This document shows, in pieces, positions 2,956-27,200 of a DNA stretch of 64,000 bases; the stretch's first letter is position 1; every line of letters starts with the position of its first letter. The notes under the pieces were generated by a model. That model searched no databases. It had not been told where the DNA came from and saw nothing but the letters and a program-made list of their open reading frames with translations. The stretch lies in assembly GCA_034687125.1 (NCBI GenBank), contig JAQGBZ010000353.1, forward strand, positions 1 to 64,000, written 5' to 3'. Source of the stretch: Neelides folsomi (taxonomy: Eukaryota; Arthropoda; Collembola; Neelipleona; Neelidae). The position numbers and the translations under genes are program-made.

Positions 2956-5900
2956 CATACTGTATACCCTTCTCTACATCCATACTGACTAACCATACGA
3001 TGTGCATAAAGCGATAGGAAGTAACAATAAAGAAGGCTTCAAGAAATCGTGGCCCATACAAATGAGCAGGCAAAGGAAAGGTTAAAAGAGGGCCAATGAC
3101 CCATAAATTGAAATCTCATTATTCAATGTTATCTTAAGCAATTTTTCATATTGTATCTAAATGTAATTACATTTCACTCATTTTGTCTGATGAAAGTGTT
3201 AACAAACATGCGAAACATTGCTGTGTAAACTTTCTCTTTGAAGGGACGGAAAGTTGAAACTTTTGCGGGCGTCTATGAACTAATGTATACTCCACCACGA
3301 ACCAAAGAGCCGAAACGAAATGGTTGACATTATGTGCATTTATGAGGACTGTCAATGTTCCGTGGTTGTTTGGGGGTCTCATTGAGTCTTCTCGGACTTT
3401 GGCTACGTGGGGAGACTTTAGAAGCAGAAATTTTCACATCCGTTTGATGTTCACTTCAATACTGAGACCTCATTTCATTTCAAATCAACGAGGGTCTTCA
3501 TTCTCATTTCCCAACTCCAACTACTACGAGTTCCAATCCAATTCAATGATTCACATCACAAGAACATTTATGTGAAAAAAGAAGCAGTGATACTAAAATA
3601 AACTTTAGAACCACTACCTTTTGCCCCATATGAACTTATATTTACTACGTACTTATGTAGCTGTATACTTACATAATGTATACATAATTTAACATATGTA
3701 CTATATTGGTATAATTCTAATTTAAAATTAATCACAAAACATTGCATTAAATTTGAATATTACAAGGCTTGGTAGAAATAGTCAATACAATCACGTAACA
3801 ACTAAGAAAAATATACAATTCCATTAAAATCCTTCGAATCAAGTAATAATGTCATATATAAAGTCTACAATGTTGTTCCATAACATCTAAGTTATTGAAA
3901 TAGTAAAAAATGTATAAAAAGATTTATTGTAAATAAATTATTAATTATTTTTTTTACTAAATCGCCTATAGTAGGTGTCCAATTAAGCCATTAAATTGAG
4001 GATGAAGACATGAAGTTTATGGGCGTAGTATATTTTGTCGCTTCTCTTTCCTTAAAGGGCGAAGAAGTCGATAAAAGTTTTTGAGCTGCCTATTATCTTG
4101 TGAACTTACTGCCTTTCATTAGCTCTTATTGACCATTTCCCTTCCGATCCAAGGGGAGAATCTTGTGCAAAGCAGAGCCATCAACAACAGGCGCGCTAAT
4201 TGAATTGCCGAGACAAGGCCATGACTCTGTCCTGACTCTGACAAAATGTTTATCAGCCGCATGAGGAGGAAAACGATATGAACCATGCTTCCTCTTCAAT
4301 AAATAAAGACTTTCACCCCAGAGTTCCACTAATAGTTCTTTATCCCCTATGCCATTTAGTAATTCCCCTCTTTGAGAAATATTACAATTTTATCCATCTA
4401 CTTAATTGCTTGCATTAATTAATAACATATTTTGATGAAATAAAGAGAATGAAACAGAAGTGATTCTTGAGACAATAATGGGGCCAAATGTTGATAATCA
4501 AAGATAGAGAAAGGGGGCGGATATTACACAATGACATTAGTATGATTGCGCCAAAAAAAGGACACTTTTACAATCTCAGTCTAGCGTTGGGGAAAAATAT
4601 GACCCATTACCGTCCCCCGTCTATTTTTCATTTCCTTTGTTTATTGTTCAAAAGAGTTGGCTTGAAACTTGTAAAAGTTTTCACCCTCCTCCGCACAGAA
4701 AATAAGACAATGGGGATGAAGAATAGTGAGAAGAGGAACCAAAGAAAAAAAGAACTTTTTCAATAGTTATACTCATTTCATAGGTACCATACTTAATAAA
4801 AGTAAGTATGTAATATAGTTACATAACATGCTTAGGAATATTGTACGATACGTACAATATGTATAAAATAAATTTATATTGTATTTATACATGGTAGTAG
4901 ATAATAATTGGTAACTTGTAATATCTATTCATTAGATAGTTTATATTTATAATCTTATGTAGTTATGCATTTCTATCTTGACTATGCATGTCATATCATA
5001 TTCGTTTCATTAGCAAACATGTTAGATTAAATTGAACTGAAACTCAATATTACAAAAGCCCAACAAGATATAATTTTACAAGCCAATGGCTAATTTCCGA
5101 AAAAAAAGTTTCAGTTAATTTACAATTTCAACAATGTTCATCTCAAAAAAATGAAAAAAGGAATATCGAGCGAACAAAACTTTTTCTCTTTCTTTATGAT
5201 TTGAGTAGTCTGCGGCTGACTTATGAAATTATTTCTCTGACTTGAAAAAATACGAGTTCTTTGTTATAATGAGGAGAAAAAGTCCAAGTTTAGCGTAAAA
5301 GTTATAAACATTATGGAGCTGTAGTAAGAAATATCTTTCTTAATTCCCCTCGAACAATAAGAGAATATGACATGATCAAAATATATCATATTTTCTAACC
5401 ATTGTATCTCACTTTTTACTCCTCGTTCTTTAACTTTCTCCTACCCAAGATTGCCTAAAATTCTAAAGCAAATTTTTCCTTATTACACTTTTTATTGGAC
5501 AACTTGATAATTTCGACCAGTCCAATTTAATAAAATTAGACTTAAATTTATTTTAAAACAAATGTTTCATACATGTTCACAAAGATCTACACCAGAAATA
5601 TTTGTCAATAAATATGAAAAGCCGTTGAGATAAGTTAGTTTGACAATAAACTAGTGATTTGAGAATATAAAGGTATAAATAATTTGAAATCTCTTTTTAT
5701 TCCCTTAATTTCCTTTTGATCATGGGAGCAATAAAACGAGATGAATGGGAGCAGTTCTTTATAAAGCCAACTCAATAAGTCAAGGCATGCATTGCAGTGG
5801 GGATTGCGTCTATGTGAGTGAGGTTGAGCTGAGAACGATTCATAGATGAGAGGAGCCATAAAGTAGAGAAAGAAGGAAAGAAGGCTTAGAAGCCGAGATG

Positions 5901-8900
5901 AAACTGACAGACTACTCGGGAAGAGACACATGAAAACTCCATTTCCGCAGTGAGAACTTTCCTGATTCTCATGTCAGTCAGCTCTCATGTTTGTATAAGT
6001 ACACTCATGTGGTTAGACGTAGGATTCAAAATCCGCCCAGTCCCACACAAGGTGAACTCCCATGTTTTCCTTGAAAGGAAGAGGAAAGGCGGTAAACAAG
6101 AATAGACTTTGTATGTAATGCTAGAGAATTACCTTCTTTAACTCCCCAAACCAATATTTCCCAGCTCAAACAACCAATCTCTCTTCAACAACCAACAGGC
6201 AGGAGGAAATAAACATCATACGACTTTTACTGCTTAAAAGTTCGGTTAAACAGCTTAAAACAAAGACACGTTTTCTTTTCCCATCCTCCTCGCACATACA
6301 TATTTTTGTTTCCAACCAACTTTAGACCAAAGTTTTACTTTCCCCTTCATCCACACTTGGGCTTTCAACGTGGTTGATCGGCGTACCTCCATAAGGACCA
6401 AGGACCTATCTTCTCTATGGACCCTTATATTATGTATACAAGAAAAGAGGAAAAAAAACTTTTCGAGCAAATTATCTACGAAGGAAGTTTGAAAGAATAT
6501 AATGCGGCGAAACCAACTCATTTCAAATTTAAATAAAAACTTTCCCTATTATCTTAAAATTCTTTCTTGACAGTGACTTGATTAAATAACATCTATGTAA
6601 ATAGTATATACGTGTACACACTTGGATATAATATTTAGAGGAACATATCTTTTTTAAACGCCCTTATCATGGTGAGGAGACGAAATTAAAGATGAATAAA
6701 ATTTCTTTTGATCTCCTGTATAAAATTTTAAACCAACTTTTCCTTTTTAATTTGTAGAATTATTTAATTAATTCAAATCACAAGAAGCATAAAGGCTCAA
6801 ATTTTAAATTGGGTCTCTTTTTATTTTCAATGGAAATCCATCTACTTAATCCATTCATGTTTTTATAAAATTAAATTTCTAGGCAGTATGAATGTACCAC
6901 TATTTTATTTCCAAAATTCTTTTTTAGTTTCTTTTTGTTTTAAGAAGACGAATCGACCTTATTAACCTTTGTAGTCATAAAAAGGAAGGAGTTTTCTCTT
7001 TTGTATTTTTATGAAAGTTTGATTGCTTTTGGGACTCGTTAAATCCATGTTGGATATACAAGTGGATAATGAAGGATGATAGGCCTACCCACTTTTACTT
7101 TTAAAGAAAACAAGATTTAGAAAGTTTTGGTGATGAGAAGGAAAATCCCCTAGGCTTTCTTCGGTTCTCTTCTACTCCGCTTTCAATTACGGAACTTAAT
7201 CTCGGAGCAAATCTATCCTCTAATACAGCTAACATATTCTATAACTCTTCCCCATTTATACATGAGACGGGGGAAAAGAATTGGAATCGAATTCTGATCC
7301 TTTGAGAGAGAGACTCAACGACGAGGATCGACATTTAAAACGTTGGATGAACTTGGGGGAATCCGGGGCGTTGGCGGGAGGATGACGGGAGTGGCGGAAG
7401 CTGGACGGTTTCTTATCTCACTCTACTTGAATCATGGGAGAGAATAGGTCTTTGTAGTAATATGAGAGAAAGAAGGAGGGCGAAATAGAAATACGGACCC
7501 GCCGGTCTCGCCGGCTTCTCTATGTAATATTATTCTTGTCTCCGTTTCTGCTTCAGTTTTAGTCGTAATCGTAAGTTCTAATAGCCTCATGTATGTGTTT
7601 CTAATGCTTATAGAAAGAAATCAGGCAACGAGCCAAGGGCATAAATCTCAAATCGAATCGAATCGGATACTCAAGCTCCTAAATCCAAAATCCTACTCCA
7701 GTTTACGAAGACTCGTTTCCGTCCAAAGATATTCGCGTTTCGCTCAGAAGCACAATCTTAATTATCATAGGAAGCTGAATACAATTACAGCATAAGAAAT
7801 GCTTACTTAGCTTCCTTTTAACCCAAATTCATTGACTATTCACATCCCTTCCCAGACCTTCTAAACATCCCTAATAAGAAATGAACATTAAAGTATATTT
7901 AATTAAAATAATCAAGTGAATTTAAATGAGTTTAAATGAACATTTGTTTTCTCATTAGAATTCAATTTCTGCCCCCATGTGCTCAGAATGAGGAGTTTGG
8001 GAGAAAAATTCATCTAAAAGAACTTGATTAGTTAGGAATTCATATTATACTATGATGCTACTCAATTTGGAATCTCATTCTTCTTTCATCTCAAAGTGAA
8101 AGTTAGGAGACAAATGTGCCAGAGAATCCTCATTATGATAGAGATTGAATGAAGCATTAGAGCAGAAATGTCTTTGAGAATTCAAATCATATAAAATAGG
8201 CCCTTTTTTCATTTTCTTAAAGCCTAACTTTATTTGTGTTGAATAGACCGATAAAAACAATATAGCTAATAGCTAATTTAACAAAATATTGTAAAGTTCT
8301 TCAAATATTATTACAAATAATTATTTTATTTAAAATTAAAAAAAAACATTAAAAATCTTTATACAACCTTTATTGTAAAGGTAAATGATACAAGTGAATA
8401 TTTTTTCTACTTGTGCATATTTTTTTAATAAAAATAGCTAAATGTTTAGATACAATTCATTCAAGTTTTCAACCAAATTTTTTCCCCTAAATTCATCTTT
8501 GACCTTTTATCATTCCGCATTAAGATTGTACGTTTCTACTTTTATAACCATTTGTGTTTGTTAGGTAGGCTATACATATTTATGTCCGGCCGTATGATTC
8601 ACAAAAAAGTGGCGGAAGGGAAAGTTGGACGCATCGAAGTAAAAAGACTGAAGGAGGAAACAAGGAACGAGTCTTCCTTTTTCATATGATAAAAGAAGAA
8701 GGGAAGTTTGTATGAAAAACGTGAAAGAAATGCTTTTATTTTGCTCCGGCGGTCATTCGGAGTTTGGCGAGCGAGAGAGACCAGACGCTGTATAAAACTC
8801 GAAGAGAAGGGAGTTCGAGCACGGACATTGTATCAAGAAGAAACGAACAGACCACTATAACTTCTTCTTAACCAGGTCAAAATCTCCTGAGAGTCGACTA

Positions 8901-15200: not shown

Positions 15201-18200
15201 GAGGAGGATTGAGGAGTCGAGTCACGTTGTTTGCACTTTACTTTGCATAGTTGCTCGAGGAGGCTCAACTTTGACTCCCTTAGTGAGCAAGAGCTTTCAC
15301 CCGAACTTATTACTTACGAACCAGCAGCCCCAAAGCCTTCATGATCAACCTTTTTACAATATTACACTCCCGACGATATTTTACGTGAAGAAAAGGTGAT
15401 TTGTTGCCGAGTAAAAAAAATCTCCATTCAGTCCACGCCTAAAGGAACCGCTTAAGCTTGACAAAGCGAAGGTATATTAGAATGACTTCATTCATTTCGT
15501 TCAAGATAATTCTTAAATAGACAATTTGACAAACACCCATTTGTCTTTTTAACTCCCTTTTTATTGATCCTTGATTCAATTTTTCAATCGTAAATCAGCA
15601 TAGATTAGTAAACTAATATTTTCGCTCGTTTTATCATTCAAAATGATAGATATTGCACAGATATTGCAGAAATAAATGATAAACGAATCTTAAAAGCACT
15701 GTACTTCAACGATGAATAAAAATTTATATTAAATATTTTTCTCTTTGTAAATTCCTTCCCCTGAACAAAAGAAACGTAGGTATTAGATATTAAATATAAC
15801 TAATACATACATATACGATATAAAATATGCATGTGTATTAAATGAGCACATTTACGTATACCAAAAGGTATGTAACATGAAAGAATAGCTTTCGCAAAAA
15901 TCATTAAATTATTATTATAGTTAACTATGCAATAATGCAAAAAGATAAAATAAAATACAAAAATAAGGTATCTTAATAAAATTCTCTATCTTGACCTCAT
16001 TCTTTAAATATTCTACACAATTGAGAATATATCAATATGGAGGATGGAGCAGGTCGAAAATTCCTCTGTAATTGCATTCCAGCCCCTATTATTCTCAAAG
16101 ACCTAAATATTTGTCTTTCAGATTTGATAATTTTGCGGGGCCTACATGTGTAATTTCCCTATTATCATCCATGAAAGGAAGAGAGTAATGTGATGTGAAA
16201 TGTTATGCATAAGGAGGAAATTACTTACGAGGCGGCGGAAAGCGAGTATGGAGTAATTAACCACTCCTAATTTATTGCCTTCATTTTGCCATTCCCTTGG
16301 AAGGAAGCCTTGAAGGTTCCATTCATTTATTCCCACAGTGGATCCCCTTCCCAGCGATGGGGTCACATAACTCGAGAAATATACTTATATTATGTGTATA
16401 CGTATGGAACCAACCCACCGCGTCCCTCCAAACATATAAGTAGAGAGAAATGGTGAGAGAGTGGAACATTCTTCAAATTGCCTGCCCTCCTTTTTTCATC
16501 GAGAAGACAAAGATCTCTCCCAGGCTCCTCCTGAAGAGGACAAGAGGAAGAAAGTCGTGTCTTTCCATGATTTAGTGCTCCCTTTCATCCACGCACAATA
16601 AACTTTGCATAATATTCCGACTCTCAAACATCCTTCGTTCCTCTTTTATTGCCTTCAACCACTCAAAATGGTGAAAAATGAAACTCGCACTTCTCATTAG
16701 TAATTGGAGAAGACAGATTTATTTTTCATATATAAAAGAAATTAATGAAAGGGGAAATTTACACGTGAAAAACGAGGCTCTTAAAACTCGTAATTAAAGT
16801 TTTGTTGTAGCATGTTTGACCCATTATGTTAAAATTCTTTTAAAATGCGATCCAATGCGTCTTTTGAAATGACTATAAAGCTTCGGAATCTTTTAAGAAG
16901 TTTCGAGGGAAGAATAATAGGGAGTGTAATTGAAAGTGGGGAGGAATAAAGCTGCCTCCAAACTCCTATTTTTAAAGTGTCAGATTGTCTTAAGGAGTGG
17001 GAGAAAGTTCCAGAGTGAGAAAAAGTTGACGATTTTAATTCAATTTAAGTCCAACCATGGCTGTTCTCTCTCAATTACCACATTTCTCTCTAATGATTTC
17101 TCTCAAAACTTTTCACCGTCTTATTCTCATCCCTTGATGGATTTCAAGACGACACAACTCAATTTCGTCACACTCAAAATGGCTTCACACATGATTTCTT
17201 ATTTTATTATAGCACTAAACTTTACAATAATGATATGAAAATTTCTCCTTCTACATAATACTTATGTGCATATATCTTGCGATAAGATATAACAAGATAG
17301 AAGATCAAACACATTAAATATACAATTTATGTAATAGCAGAGATTCACGAAAATGCTTTTACTTGAGCAATGCACATTACTAACAATTGATATGAATAAT
17401 ACATATGACCACCATGTATGATATGTTTGTACTTAAGATTTTTCATTATTCTTTACAATGACATGTCCAACTTATCACGTCCATTTGGAGGAGTAAAATA
17501 CTCATATCCGAAGTGTCTTCCTTGTCCAATAACTGTCACTGCCTTTGGACATTTATGAGAGGAACTTTCTCACGTCACTTCTTTCACGTGCAGCTCAATA
17601 TGAAGGACTCTTGCTGAGGATTTCTCAGGACGAAAAACCCTTCGAGGTAATATTATTTCCTCCACATACCTCATTTTTCCAACTCGAGGATCTTGACCAA
17701 CTCATTGAGAAAAGAAGAGCACTACACAGCCAAGCTCCTCTTATGTGGAGAAATGAAACGGCTCATCGTCCACCATTCTTGACACGCAGAATGAGGAAAT
17801 ACTTACATTCCACCAGGAAAATTCATCTCGATATGAATTTCGACTTTCGTTATTTGACCGGAATCTCAAGCAGTTTTTTTTACCATCAAAGATCCAACCA
17901 ATACAATAGAATGGGAATAGATGTGAAATTTTATATATTCTGCTAATAGTGAAAGGCAAAATACCGTGATACCTAAAACATATAAAGGTACTAGGTACAA
18001 GATATAAAGGTATATTTAGGTACTCTACTTACTATCCATACTTACTTACTTAGGTGTACCTATACAAATACATACTTGGGCTTAGTTTTGTAGGCATACA
18101 CTACACTATGTCTATAGGCGTATACTTTAAATAAAATGGTTACAGTAATTTGTGAATATAAACAGTTTGTCAGAGCAAAGGATAAATCCATATAATTTAT

Positions 18201-21200
18201 ATGAAAAGGAATAATGTATGAAATATGTACTAAGATTTTTAATGCATAACACGAGATTATAGGAATATTTTGAATAATTTCTTTATCATGTAATCCACTT
18301 ACATACACCCACGCAGATGAATTTAAGCAGGAATAAAGCCCAGAGAAAGATTACTCCCCTATTCGGAGTTTTGATATCCATGTAACGCATGTAATGTTAG
18401 TTTACTAATGCTGTGTGGACAGAAGGAAAGGCTTAAAAAGAAAAAGCCTTATTCTTCGACCAAATCCTGCATGGTGAAATAGCATAGGAGGAATGGATCA
18501 AAAAAAGCTGAGCCGAACTCAAAAGCCGAATCGGATTTTTCTTCTCCACAACATGAACTTATTTGAAGAGGATCTTCCGTCTCCTTGGAGCGAAATTTGG
18601 AGTGATGGGACTAAAGACTCGAGATCCGGACAAGGACAGAGTGAAAGAAGGAGGAGGAAATGAAAATTCAAGCACAAAAAGGGTTTCTATTAGATGACAA
18701 CTGGCATTCAATGTCGGGTCAAAATGCATTTTTGGCAATTGTCAATTGAATTCCATGGCAGAGGACCAGAAAAATCTGATCGCGCGAAGTCGAGAATCAG
18801 ATAAGGGGATGGTCTCAATCGGATTTTATTTCAACACGGATTCGAATTTCTTTCTCCAAAGGTGAAACATCAAACATCAATATGTCAATAGGAAATAGAA
18901 CTTTATATACAGTACATAAGATATTGAGAGTATTAAGAATGCTTTTGTGCATTTGAGAAATATAATTTCACATTGATTTTTATGCAATGAAAAATGCAAA
19001 AATATAAGATCGGTAAGACCTGTATAGAACAATTTTTTGATCGATGACCTATCATTTCAAACATCTTGTATTTATGGATTTGGAGACCTCCCATGTAAAA
19101 TGATGAATCAATAAAGTAGGAGTATTTATGATATTTCATCCTTTGAAATAAAAATGCGGGATCGATCCCAATTAAATTATATTATAAAATTATTTTCAAA
19201 TCAAGACAAGTCAAAACTATTTAAACGTAGACATTGTAAATATTGTGATAATCTCAAATAAATTAAAAATATTATCATATGAATAATGTAATAGAGTTAA
19301 ACTTACTTTAATGAAAATTAAATGCGATAGACTACTTCTATCTGTAAATTCGGTACTACTGAAGCATCTTACTATAATACATACCTAATAAAGCATTTTT
19401 ACTTAATTAATACATACCTGTATACTGGATAATGTTATCTTGGTTCATAGAGTACATGTCTTAAACATCTAATATGCATCCATACATACATAATGTATGT
19501 ATGTACATAATATTATATATGTTACGTAAAATAAAAACAAATGTTTGTAGTTCTAAAGAGCAGTGCGTCCTTCTGTCCTTTCTCTTGCGGTCGTGACTTG
19601 AGCTAATGGATCCTTAATTTGAAAGGATTTCACCATTACGGACAGCTATAGAAAAGGATCTCATTTAACCTTAAAGGAGACAGATCACAAGCTACAAATA
19701 AGCAGAGTACAAATAAGTGTGTACAAATACACAACAGGTAGAATATATAGTACATATTATGTATAAGTATTAAGTGCATGCTCTAATTCACTATTTATTC
19801 TCCTTATGTTTTGAAATAAGCCATCCGGCTTCGCTTCTCTTTAATTAATCTCGTATTATTATTTCTCACAAAGAGTTAAACTAAACATAAGCTCAATGCT
19901 ATACCATCATTTTAATGACACGAATTTTATATCACATAATTACTGAAAAGTTCTATTATAATTATGGATTAGACGAGTCTTACCTGTATGATGAAATATG
20001 ATCCAAATTATAAGAGTGACCTATCGTAAACTTCTATAGGGAACGAATAGTGTAGATCTATAGATTACGCAGACCCATAATGTTCAAAGCAACATAAAAA
20101 GGAAAAGAGACCCTTTTTCCTCCAACTCCCTACACCAGAAAACCACCTAGCGGACGACCTCAGTTTATTTAAAGAAAAAATTAAAGACGTGTGGTCAAGA
20201 AAAGGGTAGGGAGGGTCCCTATAGAAGTTTACTACCGGTCACTCTTATAATTTGGATCATACTTCATCTTACAGGTAAGACTCGTCTAATCCATAATTAC
20301 AATTCGTGACCTATCGTAAACTTCTATAGGGAACGAATACTGTAGATGTTCAAAGAAATACACACGTCTTTAAACAAATATATCCAAAAGCCTCTTCATT
20401 ACATAAAAAATAGGACACAACAAAGAGACTAATTAGAGGTTAATTGATGTAAATTTTTAAATGGTCTTTTGTAAAATTTCGCAAACACAGAAGATTTTGT
20501 TGACCAACCTGCACATGATAATATAGTATCAATACACACTCCGTTATTTTCAGCCGTTGAAGTTGCAGCGTGACGAAAACTATGCCCTTTAAATTTTGTG
20601 TCAATTTTGGTCTCACGTAATAACATTTTAAGCCAACGGCCAACAGATTGAGTTGTGACAGCGCCATGAGGTTTGTCAAGGCTTACAAACAAATTATCAT
20701 TGGATCTCAATTTACTAGTTCTTTCCAAATATACTTTTAAAGTATTAACGACACATAAAATTTCCTCTTTTACAAAAGATGGAAGATATAAACAAGGTTG
20801 ACACTTATTTGGCTGAGAAGTCTTAATACACTTTACAATAGGGATCTGTACATCAGAGGGAGTAAAATTAATATTAGACACAAGTATAGAATTTAAAGTC
20901 TGAGCTCTCTCACCTGATGTTAATGCTAACAATCCGATTAACTTAAGAGTAAGAGATAAAGATAAGTTTACATTAGATTGCCAAGACCGAAAGTGATCCA
21001 GGATAATTTCGGAATTCCAAATAACATTATAACGAGGAAGAGGGGGACGTTTCCTCCAAACCCCCTTTACAAATCTTGAGACTAATGGATGTTGGTCAAC
21101 AGCACCATCAATGGGTAATGTGAAAATTGATAGGGCGGAGCGTGCGGTGTTCAAACTGCTATAACCAAGATTATTGTCATACAATGAATTTAAAAACTTT

Positions 21201-24200
21201 AAAATAACGAGAACTGAAGGGCTAATTACGTTACACTTATTCAAATTACAGAAAATGATCCATCTTGTGATGAATGACTTGTATTGACTCCGAGTAGAGT
21301 CTGCACATGAAGAAAGAATTAATTCTGATATATCTTCCGGGAAACCCTTCTGAATTAATGAGCTCCTGAGACAATCCCGATCTTCAGTCTGAGTGTTTGA
21401 AAAAGCGGGTGCGGTCTATTAGAAAAGGGACAAGTCAGTAAAGATCGAGATGGGCCGCAAATATACTTCCTTGTGATTAGCATAGAGTTAAACACTGGGT
21501 ACCAAGATTGAGATTTCCAACTCGGAACTACAACAATTCCCTCAGCAGGTATAAATAAATCTTTTCAAGAACCCTTCCAACTAATGAGAATGGTGGGAAC
21601 GCGTAAAACCTCTCGTCTTTCCAAGGAACTGAAAAAGCATCTACAAATTCTGAACATGGATCCGGATGCCATGAGGCGAACCTTTTACACTGAAAACTTG
21701 CATGTGATGCAAACAAATTTAACTGGGAATTCCAAACTTCTGACATTTTATATCGAACTCACACTTATCTAATTTCCATTCAGAAATATCTTCCTTACTT
21801 CTGGACTGTAAATCGGCGACAAAATTATTCTGACTAGAGATATGAGTCGACTAGCCATAAATCCCTTTCTTCACAGAACTTCCATATACTTTTAGCTAAT
21901 TCATGTAGTTTTGATGATCTGCAACCACCGAACCTATTTATGTATGCGATCGCTGTGGTATTGTCCACTCTCAATAAAACTGACATATTTTTCCATTCCT
22001 TCGCAAAACATCTAAGCGCCTTATTCACTGCAAGCAACTCGAGATAATTTATATGATTATTTTTCTCGTCATTAGTCTAAAACCCTCTAGTTCGTGCATT
22101 CTCGTGGGCAGCTCCCCAACCCGACAGGGAAGAATCAGTAAAAATTATCTTTGTTAAAGGTAACTGCTTAATTGGTCTAGCACGTGAACTCATATGAACA
22201 TTGTAGCCTCAAAGTTTCCACCGGTGATTGTCAAATATGACGTCTTCTCCCATTCCAACTGTCTTAAATAAAGCAGACCGTAAGGGATTGCGGGACAAGC
22301 TGAAACAAGGTTACCTAAAAGAGAGGCTATTTCCTTAATTTTAAAACTTGAACGTTTTAAAAATTGTGAACACATTAGTCTCAACTTTTCAACCTTAACA
22401 ATAGGCAGGAAAAAGACATGTCAATTGAATTAAATATAAAACCTAAATAACCAATTTCACAAGTAGAAATTAACACAGACTTTGATAAGTTAATTATAAA
22501 ACCCAATCCCTCTAAAGATTGACAAACTATTGCCACATCCCCCTTACATGCTTTATAAAAATTGCTTATAATCAAAATATCATCTATGTAAATAACCATT
22601 CTAATCCCTTCTGATCTTAATTAGGATATTAATGGTTTCATTAATTTTGTAAAAACTCGAGGAGCACAAGAAAGGCCAAATGGGCACACGTATATTCATA
22701 TAATACATTTCTCCATCTAAATTTTAAATACCTCCTAAAACCTTGATCAATTTTTACCAAGTGATAAGCATCCTTCAAATCAATTTTAGCCATATAACAA
22801 GATGGAGTAATTAATTCACACACAGTACGATGATCCTCCATCTTAAAATGAATGTTTTCAATAAATTCGTTCAATTTTTTAAGATTAATTATTAATCTAG
22901 AAGTTCCATCTGATTTTGGCACAACAATAATGCTCGATAAAAATTGTCAAAGTTCATCCCCTGATTCCACAATTGAACCAAAATTTCTAAGCTTTACAAC
23001 ACAATCATCTATTAATTTTGCCTCATTAATGCTCAATTCTTTCATTGAAGGCTCTAATACTTGATACGGTAGGGATACAAATGGCAAACAAAAACCTTTA
23101 ACATTTAAAATATAACTATCGGAAGCGATTCGTATCCACATACCAATATATTTACATAAACGACCAGCTACCTTACTCACATTTATTGTTGATAATTCCT
23201 GTGTTGTTTGCCATTGTTGAGTCGACCTCATTTAATTCTGATTGAACCGTCCTGCTCTCTGAAACCTGCCGCCTCCTCAAGCCCGATTCGGCGGCGCCCT
23301 TGAGTTTAAAGCCAAATTTCCTCTTCTGTTTTGATAAGGAGGTCTGCTGAACCGCTTTGGTTGACCTCCTCTGACCAATTTAGATTTATTCCTGGACTCC
23401 CTCAACGACTGCTCCAGATCATCCCCAAAAAGGAACTCGCTCCATTTTCCGTCTTTCACGTTACAGATGCTCGCGTATTCGGTTGAGTGATGGCTTCAAA
23501 AGAGATTTCCTTCGCATTGCAATCTCTTTCCCGACATGGGTCAAATTGTATGAAGAATCCATACAAGTTTTGAGAGCTGTTTCGACAAGCTCCTTCTGGC
23601 CATTTTTTGAAATTTCCAAATTCGTCTCTGCCAATCTCGCATTGGCGGTCATTGCTCGTGATACATGGAGATGAAGGGATTGTAATTGAGCGTCGCTAGC
23701 TCTCTGGTTTCCTGATAAATTCCCCCAAATCTCAGGCCGAATCCTTGAAACGCCAAGAGATTTACAATTGATTGGAACCTTGTAGGCGGCCTTAAGAGCT
23801 TCGTTTTTCTCCTTGCCCAGCGTCTGGTCAATTATCTTGGCAAATGAGCTCGATATCTCAGCCTTGAGTTCAGTCCCAAAATACTCCTGACTCGTTTCTT
23901 GCAAGAATTGAAAGGATTGACTCGTCTAATCCTTCATGTTCGTTCTCATCTCCGGCATGATTTGCTGACCTCAACAACTGCTCAGCAATGTCATCTCCAT
24001 CGTCATGGCTCATTGAGAAATGAGATGACTCGTCATTCTCTACTACAGGCTCATCAAAGCGTTCGGCAAGTCTTTCAAAAGCAGAAGCCATCTTATTCAA
24101 TGCATCAGCCTGTAAAGCGGTCGGAATTTGGTTCAATGCAACCCCTTCAAAATAACTAACAAAAAATCTTACAAATTTACAAATTTCTAAATAGAGCTAA

Positions 24201-27200
24201 TTAGGTACACGTACCCTGCTCTTTCACTGCATCTGCCAAAGTGGCAAGCATCACATCAGGATTCGAAGACGCGTTCGAATCTGCAGTGCTTAGACCAGCA
24301 ATCGCTTTACCACGGGTTGTTCGACCCGATTTCCCTCCAGCTCTATTTGAACACGTACAATGAGCAAATTTATTTCATCTCTACTTCTCTCAAATCTAAT
24401 AATTAAAATTACTTAATTTATGACTTACGCATTAGAGGCTCCTTCGTCGCTCATCGCAAACCAATTATTAAACTCGAAAAAAGGTCAAACTAGGTGGAAA
24501 ATTCTGGAGCAAAAAATATTGGTGTGAGTCTCACCACGCATAAAAATAGAACTGAGGTCGTCCGCTAGGTGGTTTTCTGGTGTAGGGAGTTGGAGGAAAA
24601 AGGGTCTCTTTTCCTTTTTATGTTGCTTTGAACATTATGGGTCTGCGTAATCTATAGATCTACACTATTCGTTCCCTATAGAAGTTTACGATAGGTCACG
24701 AATTGTAATTACAAGAGTGTTATCATACACTATTTCACAACAGATAGGGACACATACTCTATGTATGGTACATATACTTAATTTAGGTATTAGTACAGTG
24801 ATATTATATTACATGTATTAGTACATATGATAGAATTATAAATAGTAACAAGATAATAAATATACATCTACTTATGTATGGTGTAAGTACATAATATAAA
24901 TAATTAGTTTTGTAAATATCAATTTTCTAAAGAAAGGTATTACATTCCAGAAAATTCTTTGAAAATGCGAACGAAATAAAAGGTAACTCAATAAAAGGTT
25001 ATCTGAAATATACAGACAATGGTCTGAGTTTTTAGAAAGCAACTCTGTGTCTTCGTTTATTTGGATTGACATTTATTCGAGAATTCCTCTGAAATTCCAA
25101 TAATCTGTCAGCGCCGACAGAAACCATCTCTTTAGATCTAAAATCCATTTACTTAAAAACTTTTAATATTTATTATACTGAATGCTACATATAAATATTT
25201 ATTTTTTAATGAAATTAAAAAACCATAATGATTTAAATATTTTTTATGAGATCAGGCGCTTGCGAAATAAAAAATGCAATTTAATGCAATTTTTCATGAA
25301 TTTATCCAATCTCCTGTGCAAACTCTTTTAAGCTTAATATTATATCCGAATACAAACTGCCTATAGAGAATAAGCCCTTTCGACATAAAAGTATAAAAAT
25401 AAGTGACATTTCATGTAAGTTTTATATTTGACATACAAATTTTATGTTGAAAAGGCTTAAAGATAGAAGGTGACTTCGATATGACCAATGTGTTATGAGT
25501 GATGGAATCATATTTATGTAGATCCCTTCTTGAAAGATTTATTGGCTTACTCGTCCTATCTACGGCTCGGTCTTATGACATGAGTCTGACAATATCCTTT
25601 CTCGAAATTGCTTTAGCTTCGAATACGACCTCAATTCCGGTCAAAGCTGTTCTTTCATTACTTGAATAAAGCACTATTACACTAACATACACATGAACTT
25701 TATTCCTATGCATTTAACCACAAAAACATTTATGTAAGAATCGTAAAAAATCCCATTTAAGATGAAATATACTTATATTTGTACTTATACTTATATAAAG
25801 TATTACATATATCCTCTTATAGAATGTTAATTGCAACATTCCGTAAATGTTTATATATTCATATTCATCTACATATTTATCATTTATATCGAGAAATTAA
25901 AAAAATTATTTGTTAACTTGATGCATTGTTCCGTAGTTGATCATATATTTTATGGTATATGATATTGTATAAATTATTACTTAATATTGTTATTTATCCA
26001 TTGTTCATATTATTTATCTAATCTACTTTCATATTGATTTCTGATTTAGCTTCATTTCAATTGAATTCAAAGAAATACAGATATTACCAAAATTATGTTA
26101 TTAACTTTTAAATTAATTTGATTCAAATAAATTTATAACAACGGACACATGGCTTAAATAAGAATCGGGTGAAATTCGAATAAACCTGAAAATAGTTGAA
26201 AGTTTCCTTTCATAAATTATATAAGTGGAAGACCGTTCAAATCAAGCAGAAAGAAGAAGCGAAGAAAAGGAAACTTTCTAAAGAAAATAGACTGAAGAAA
26301 ATACATTTGAAATAGAAAAGGTGCACAGCAAGAGCGAAAGATTTTAATAGATAGAGAACTTTTGCCATTTAACCTCGTAGAAGATCAAGAAGAATGGGAA
26401 GAAGATGACAAAGAAACTCGTTGTAGCTCCTTACCTACTGCTTATGTATGTAGGATCATAAATATTATTTATATCTTTTTAATGTAATAAATACTTGTGT
26501 TAAAATCTACTTTATAATATAACACGATGGTATTATGTAATTTTAAAGTCAAAATCTTTAGTATTGAACGAAGATAAAATTTCCTCTAAAAGGATTCATT
26601 GTCTTTGGGCGATTTAATTATTTACACTTGCAGCAAATCCTCTGTTTATTATTTGTACAGGTTAATTTTTTATTGGAATTTAAAAAGAAAATTCACTTTC
26701 TCGAGTAAATTAAAGGAAAATAGTTGGGTCTAATAGCCAAAAGAATCTATGCTCACCGTTTATGCGCCTGGGGACTTTTTTTTCTTTATTCTGGGAGCAA
26801 ACTGCTGAGCCACTGTTTGATCATGAGTCTAATTCCAAATGCGAGTTTCAAAAGAAAAAGAGAATGAGGTTTTTGGTCCCATTTCGATCCCTCCTTCAAA
26901 CAGAAATTCAATCCTATTCGTTTTTTATATTTTCATTTCTTTATTAGAGGTCTCTTTCTCCCTGTGTTCAAATACTTGTACGATCACGTGTACGTTATCT
27001 TAAAGGGAATTTTTATCAACACAAATCTCATTCCATCTCAATTTATAATTATAAAGAAAAATGTCTATACTAAAGAATAAACTATTCTCTATTATAAAAT
27101 AACTAAGCTACATGTTTAAGTGTGTAGAAAATGCCAAAGCTCTTTACTTACTTGTAGACAGTACCATATGCTACTTGTAATTGTATATTTAACGCATAAA

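Follow-up and report, generated by a model that had tools for sequence, protein, structure and literature searches.

DIRS1-like retrotransposons are described as carrying inverted terminal repeats (ITRs), left and right internal complementary regions (ICRs) that overlap at the circle junction, and extensions, with the ICR lying downstream of the tyrosine recombinase (YR) gene at the 3' end (PMC3266345). In the replication model discussed for DIRS-1, the transcript is missing most of the right repeat and a little of the left one, both are restored during cDNA synthesis with the ICR as template, and a circle then forms and is integrated by recombination; the source presenting this scheme rates it as not fully proven experimentally (PMC5633606). 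Left extensions are known only from fungi and amoebozoa in the account of PMC3266345, whose table gives none for any animal element (that of CaspDIRS1 is not determined). An earlier note on the DNA analyzed here held that few DIRS elements had been worked out to the level of their ends, a statement contradicted by the 28 elements in Table 3 of PMC3266345, 27 of them with measured termini, and by the Xenopus DIRS-like families evaluated in PMC9210276, almost all of which have ITRs and ICRs.

The window, by which we mean the whole 64,000-nucleotide stretch of the Neelides folsomi contig JAQGBZ010000353.1 that was analyzed, contains with high confidence a DIRS1-like retrotransposon whose coding strand is minus, and 20216-20347 is its paired ICR, right and left, overlapping at the crossover core. 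The element occupies 19959..24711 (minus strand, about 4.75 kb; 5' end at 24711, 3' end at 19959, both taken from the circle-junction match) and reads, 5' to 3', as a 12-bp outer segment, an ITR, gag-like frames, pol, the YR open reading frame, the ICR pair, the second ITR, and a 55-bp extension. The earlier assignment to DIRS is borne out by the ITRs, the ICR pair, and the YR and RT domains, and the two overlapping ICRs lie, as expected, near the 3' end and downstream of YR. The element is an ordinary, well-marked member of its group, and its overlapping ICR pair is the group-defining feature, already known.

Its closest counterparts in PMC3266345 are DpuDIRS3 and NveDIRS6b, as tabulated there. 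Their conserved ITR parts measure 170 and 118 bp against 150 bp here, their right extensions 50 and 49 bp against 55, and their total sizes 5195 and 4142 bp against about 4.75 kb; both have an overlapping ICR pair at the circle junction together with RT and YR, and the junction is AAT in both and AT-rich here. Dictyostelium DIRS-1 likewise has inverted repeats, a right extension, and an ICR downstream of YR, but DIRS1-2 is tabulated with a conserved ITR of 304 and a right extension of 24 (PMC3266345), so that the window element has the shorter ITR and the longer extension. PAT and Ngaro elements also combine YR with RT; however, they are described as having split direct repeats, A1-B1-A2-B2 (PMC4157794, PMC9210276), and either identity is ruled out here by terminal repeats that are inverted.

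The YR open reading frame (20429..21415, minus strand) encodes 328 aa without an internal stop and matches PF00589 in Pfam (E 2.6e-10, 40.8 bits against a cut-off of 27.1). Against solved structures it gave two chance-level matches alone (E 0.23 and 0.82), and a search of viral contigs for relatives gave 4 pattern matches, of which 0 were confirmed. The pol region (21355..22946, minus strand), whose RT carries a YIDD motif, is read as nine overlapping or adjoining stop-to-stop pieces, hand-picked from 51 frames, two of which exceed the cut-off for PF00078 (RVT_1; E 3.8e-07 and 2.1e-08). As read, this copy could therefore not make its own RT. Stretches of the pol region that we presume, from reading by eye, to be RNase H-like and methyltransferase-like gave no Pfam match, for RNase H across the broken pol pieces and for methyltransferase in 21355-21564 and 21528-21758; the latter two also matched none of the sister copies described below at E 1e-3, and one RNase H-like piece weakly matches the sister element C62 (E 3.2e-04). 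Pfam scans of 15 distinct frame pieces showed no integrase core family. The two overlapping frames at 23461..24196 (minus strand), which we take to be gag from their position, match no Pfam family over the cut-off, and a 154-aa piece from them shares 43% identity with C62 across 96 aa. That pol is broken, yet the YR frame is uninterrupted and the ITRs match at 150/150, could be explained by a defective copy moved in trans, by ITR homogenization, or by assembly indels. An Rfam search of the window returned nothing at the gathering score.

The sequence that identifies the ICR is the one expected at the junction of a circularized element. The reverse complement of 24600-24711 joined to 19965-20090 aligns without gaps to 20216-20347, with 126 of 132 positions identical and a score of 234; elsewhere in the 64 kb, 442 windows of 266 bp, chosen to exclude those starting inside the element region, gave a best score of 28 and a median of 18. 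This confirms the claim of a circle-junction complement inside the element. Its extent had been given as 20228-20330, where the match indeed lies, although the true span is wider (20216-20347); similarly, the two ends do join as had been proposed, but simple concatenation of the two strings would duplicate TTA, and the overlap must be counted once. The right ICR (20216..20299, minus strand) complements the element 3' end with 5 mismatches in 84 positions, and the left ICR (20294..20347, minus strand) complements the 5' end at 53/54; they overlap at TAATTA (20294..20299), within which the junction match and the comparison of families place a probable core AATT at 20295-20298. Mismatches to the joined ends fall at 20233, 20235, 20236, 20262, 20269, and 20340, leaving a perfect 70-bp stretch around the crossover (20270-20339). 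A direct-repeat scan reported 16 families, and the two with the highest identity at lengths of at least 27 nt (D1, 42 nt; D2, 27 nt) are ITR-ICR pairs.

The 3' ITR (20016..20165, minus strand) and the 5' ITR (24550..24699, minus strand) are each 150 bp and complementary to one another at 150/150 positions, an identity that fits one ITR having been remade from the other. Between the ICR and the ends there are 6 differences in 132 positions, against 0 in 150 between the ITRs (Fisher p 0.0099), a contrast weakened if the three mismatches that fall within 4 bases arose as one event. From this difference it follows either that the far arms of the ICR were left uncopied in the last round or that the ITRs were homogenized, and 4 of the 6 mismatches do lie in the ITR-overlapping arms, which need not be copied.

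Outside the ITRs, the unequal segments of 55 bp (19961-20015) and 12 bp (24700-24711) are as previously described. The right extension (19959..20015, minus strand; 55 bp, or 57 bp with the whole of TAATTA) is complementary to the right ICR only and matches nothing at the other terminus. The 12-bp outer segment of the 5' end (24700..24711, minus strand) matches the left ICR and by strict definition would be a left extension. When it was tried instead as a gapped part of the ITR, its alignment to the inner right extension scored 7, a value reached by a fraction of 0.3692 of 5000 shuffles, and that candidate was rejected. In contrast to the animal DIRS1-like elements tabulated in PMC3266345, the window element lacks a divergent ITR stretch and has a 12-bp 5' segment whose match is confined to the left ICR, a difference that depends on a soft boundary call. 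That the host is an animal is also indicated by three exons of ribosomal protein L3, each of which matches PDB entries 6xu6 and 4v6w (Drosophila) best, in one case by a small margin, with vertebrate ribosomes close behind. A nematode SL1 string was absent even with 1 mismatch allowed, and an Rfam SL1 search, with 50 of 21760 candidates scored, carries no weight because it gave no signal in any of 14 control genomes. Neither the left-extension nor the divergent-ITR reading is established, and relative to that 2011 table the segment is at most a minor variant. A near-copy of the left outer end (19 bp, 89%) lies inside the gag-like region at 23919-23937 and could be due to chance.

A circle-junction complement near one end is the standard DIRS1-type signature, and it makes the ends of an element readable from a single copy. 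The earlier proposal that the internal region predicts both element ends agrees with its match to the joined outer ends. Because both ends share TAATTA (19959-19964 and 24706-24711), the only bases common to the two ends and themselves present in the ICR, either boundary could shift by as much as 6 bp. A DNA-level search of the 75-Mb assembly, of a kind that can miss very common words, turned up no further copy of this family, and the window YR and one RT piece used as queries against the same assembly found only distant relatives; the ends of the window element are therefore placed by its ICR alone. With the same type of DNA search, and the same proviso about common words, no empty site was found, each flank matching only the window.

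The same genome holds a second DIRS family, represented by C62 (with RT) and by C94 and C91, both internally shortened relative to C62. Its YR pieces share 37 to 57% identity with the window YR (a weak C41 match at E 0.0119 was left out), and all three copies carry ITRs and an ICR, the latter matching the copy's own ends, over the aligned parts, at 83/92 and 47/50 in C62, 80/88 and 55/61 in C94, and 58/62 and 40/42 in C91. Here the suggestion that similarity between copies should stop at the ICR-predicted ends could be examined. The ICR of C62 predicts ends at 620 (exact match from 623) and 6231 in locus coordinates; similarity between C62 and C94 starts at C62 623 and ends at 6233, and that between C62 and C91 ends at C62 6231. 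Similarity therefore stops within 3 bp of the predicted ends of C62, which is an independent check of the rule for the sister family only and not for the window's own. The far end of C94 is less clean, with the ICR match running to 5048 and similarity to C62 stopping at 5041, 7 bp earlier.

In C91 (L019 6560-6990), which has one of the four 3' ends examined, the 3' extension is truncated and the ICR of the same copy lacks the core, which makes the rule uncheckable at that 3' end. The C62 copy is interrupted beside its ICR by about 1.8 kb (L017 994-2807) containing inverted-repeat pairs at 993-1240 and 1236-2814, and the sequence of the first pair also occurs on C5, C85, and C576; this insert probably consists of nested DNA transposons. 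The ICRs of C62 (L017 about 931) and C94 (L018 about 2955) lack 4 and 2 bases, respectively, inside ACAGGTAAG, which is complete at their own 3' ends. Both families carry ACAGGTAAG unchanged at their 3' ends, and it resembles a splice donor or part of the recombinase site.

Comparison of the two families bears on the crossover. C62 and C91 start with AATTATAATTC at the 5' end, and ..AACAATT is common to C62 and C94 at the 3' end, from which it follows that the core shared by the ends of the sister family is AATT. TAATTA had been put forward as the crossover motif; it is indeed shared by both ends and present in the ICR, but the sister family supports AATT and not the whole motif. Judged from these sequences, TAATTA may be AATT plus two bases matching by chance (about one in four for the outer T and for the outer A, by our own estimate), so the crossover is not necessarily the whole 6-bp overlap.

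When the ends of the two families are joined at AATT, they align without gaps over 50 bp with 37/50 identical, a score reached by 0 of 2000 single-base shuffles. This junction block, conserved between the two DIRS families, corresponds to 20256..20305 in the ICR; the sequences compared were the genomic ends themselves, from which the ICR departs at 20262 and 20269. The 43-bp part from the 3' end is significant by itself (0/2000 shuffles), and the 11-bp 5' part by itself is not (233/2000). The block stops where the ITR begins, the outer ITR adds nothing to the alignment, and the score of the inner ITR between families, over one 100-bp stretch, was reached by 482 of 2000 shuffles. Because the outer extensions with the core are the part of the termini found to be conserved between families, we infer that the circle junction is probably the recombinase site. 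Among the matches listed for DIRS half-sites, crossovers, or extensions, no title dealt with a DIRS attachment site, which is not proof of absence.

Tyrosine recombinase sites commonly have an inverted repeat around a spacer. The sister junction has such a repeat with a 7-bp spacer, matching at 9/10 in the C94 ICR (reached by 5 of 5000 shuffles) and at 8/10 in the C62 ICR (74 of 5000), two related copies that do not count as independent. Inverted half-sites were also sought at the junction of the window's family and rejected, the best being 5/10, which 4116 of 5000 shuffles equalled or exceeded; this speaks against generalizing the layout.

These observations bear on the strongest alternative to the ICR as a template, namely that it is mainly a preassembled recombinase site or splint, keeping the full junction in the integrated element for recombinase binding or for the landing of a circle. 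The conserved block extends across the junction but not into the ITR, and the sister family surrounds the core with an inverted repeat; four of the six ICR mismatches sit in the arms that overlap the identical ITRs, and DIRS-1 insertion is reported as preferring DIRS-1 copies (PMC5633606). On the other hand, the window's family lacks the inverted repeat, 0 of the 4 copies have a DIRS element inserted in the ICR (the interruption beside that of C62 looks like other elements), and the roles of template and site are not exclusive. We consider it unlikely, though worth entertaining, that the site role is the main one. A more specific and rather doubtful proposal is that the joined extensions and AATT form an attachment site of about 50 bp that is uninterrupted in the circle and, in inverted form, in the ICR, but nowhere else. 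The ICR would then be more than a template, offering a standing docking site in each integrated copy, and animal DIRS elements would have a short left extension belonging to the site.

An assembly artefact of inverted repeats might be suspected in a single copy with identical ITRs, but 6 differences separate the ICR from the ends, so it is not a pasted copy, and three loci on other contigs share the layout, each with its own sequences; we regard this explanation as very improbable. Similarity arising by chance or from simple palindromes in AT-rich DNA, suggested by the palindromic core and a GC content of 31-38% (18001-26000), is virtually excluded by a score of 234 against at most 28 in the 442 control windows, with nothing comparable elsewhere in the window.

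The preferred reading of the ICR as a template follows the DIRS-1 model. The element RNA would lack part of the terminal repeats, the ICR would serve as a template or splint that restores the ends and brings them together in circular DNA, and the element's tyrosine recombinase would then recombine the joined ends with a short target of matching sequence, and no target-site duplication would result. Transcript, circle, and recombination step are carried over from the published model; the locus itself contributes its anatomy, the ends that this anatomy predicts, and a junction common to two families.

For a DIRS1-like element with a single known copy, the analysis provides the ends. Such an architecture was established long ago, but with the DIRS-1 model described as not yet fully proven (PMC5633606), it is useful to have the junction defined. 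Within one genome, the comparison of two families yields a candidate recombinase site of 50 bp with core AATT, testable in vitro.
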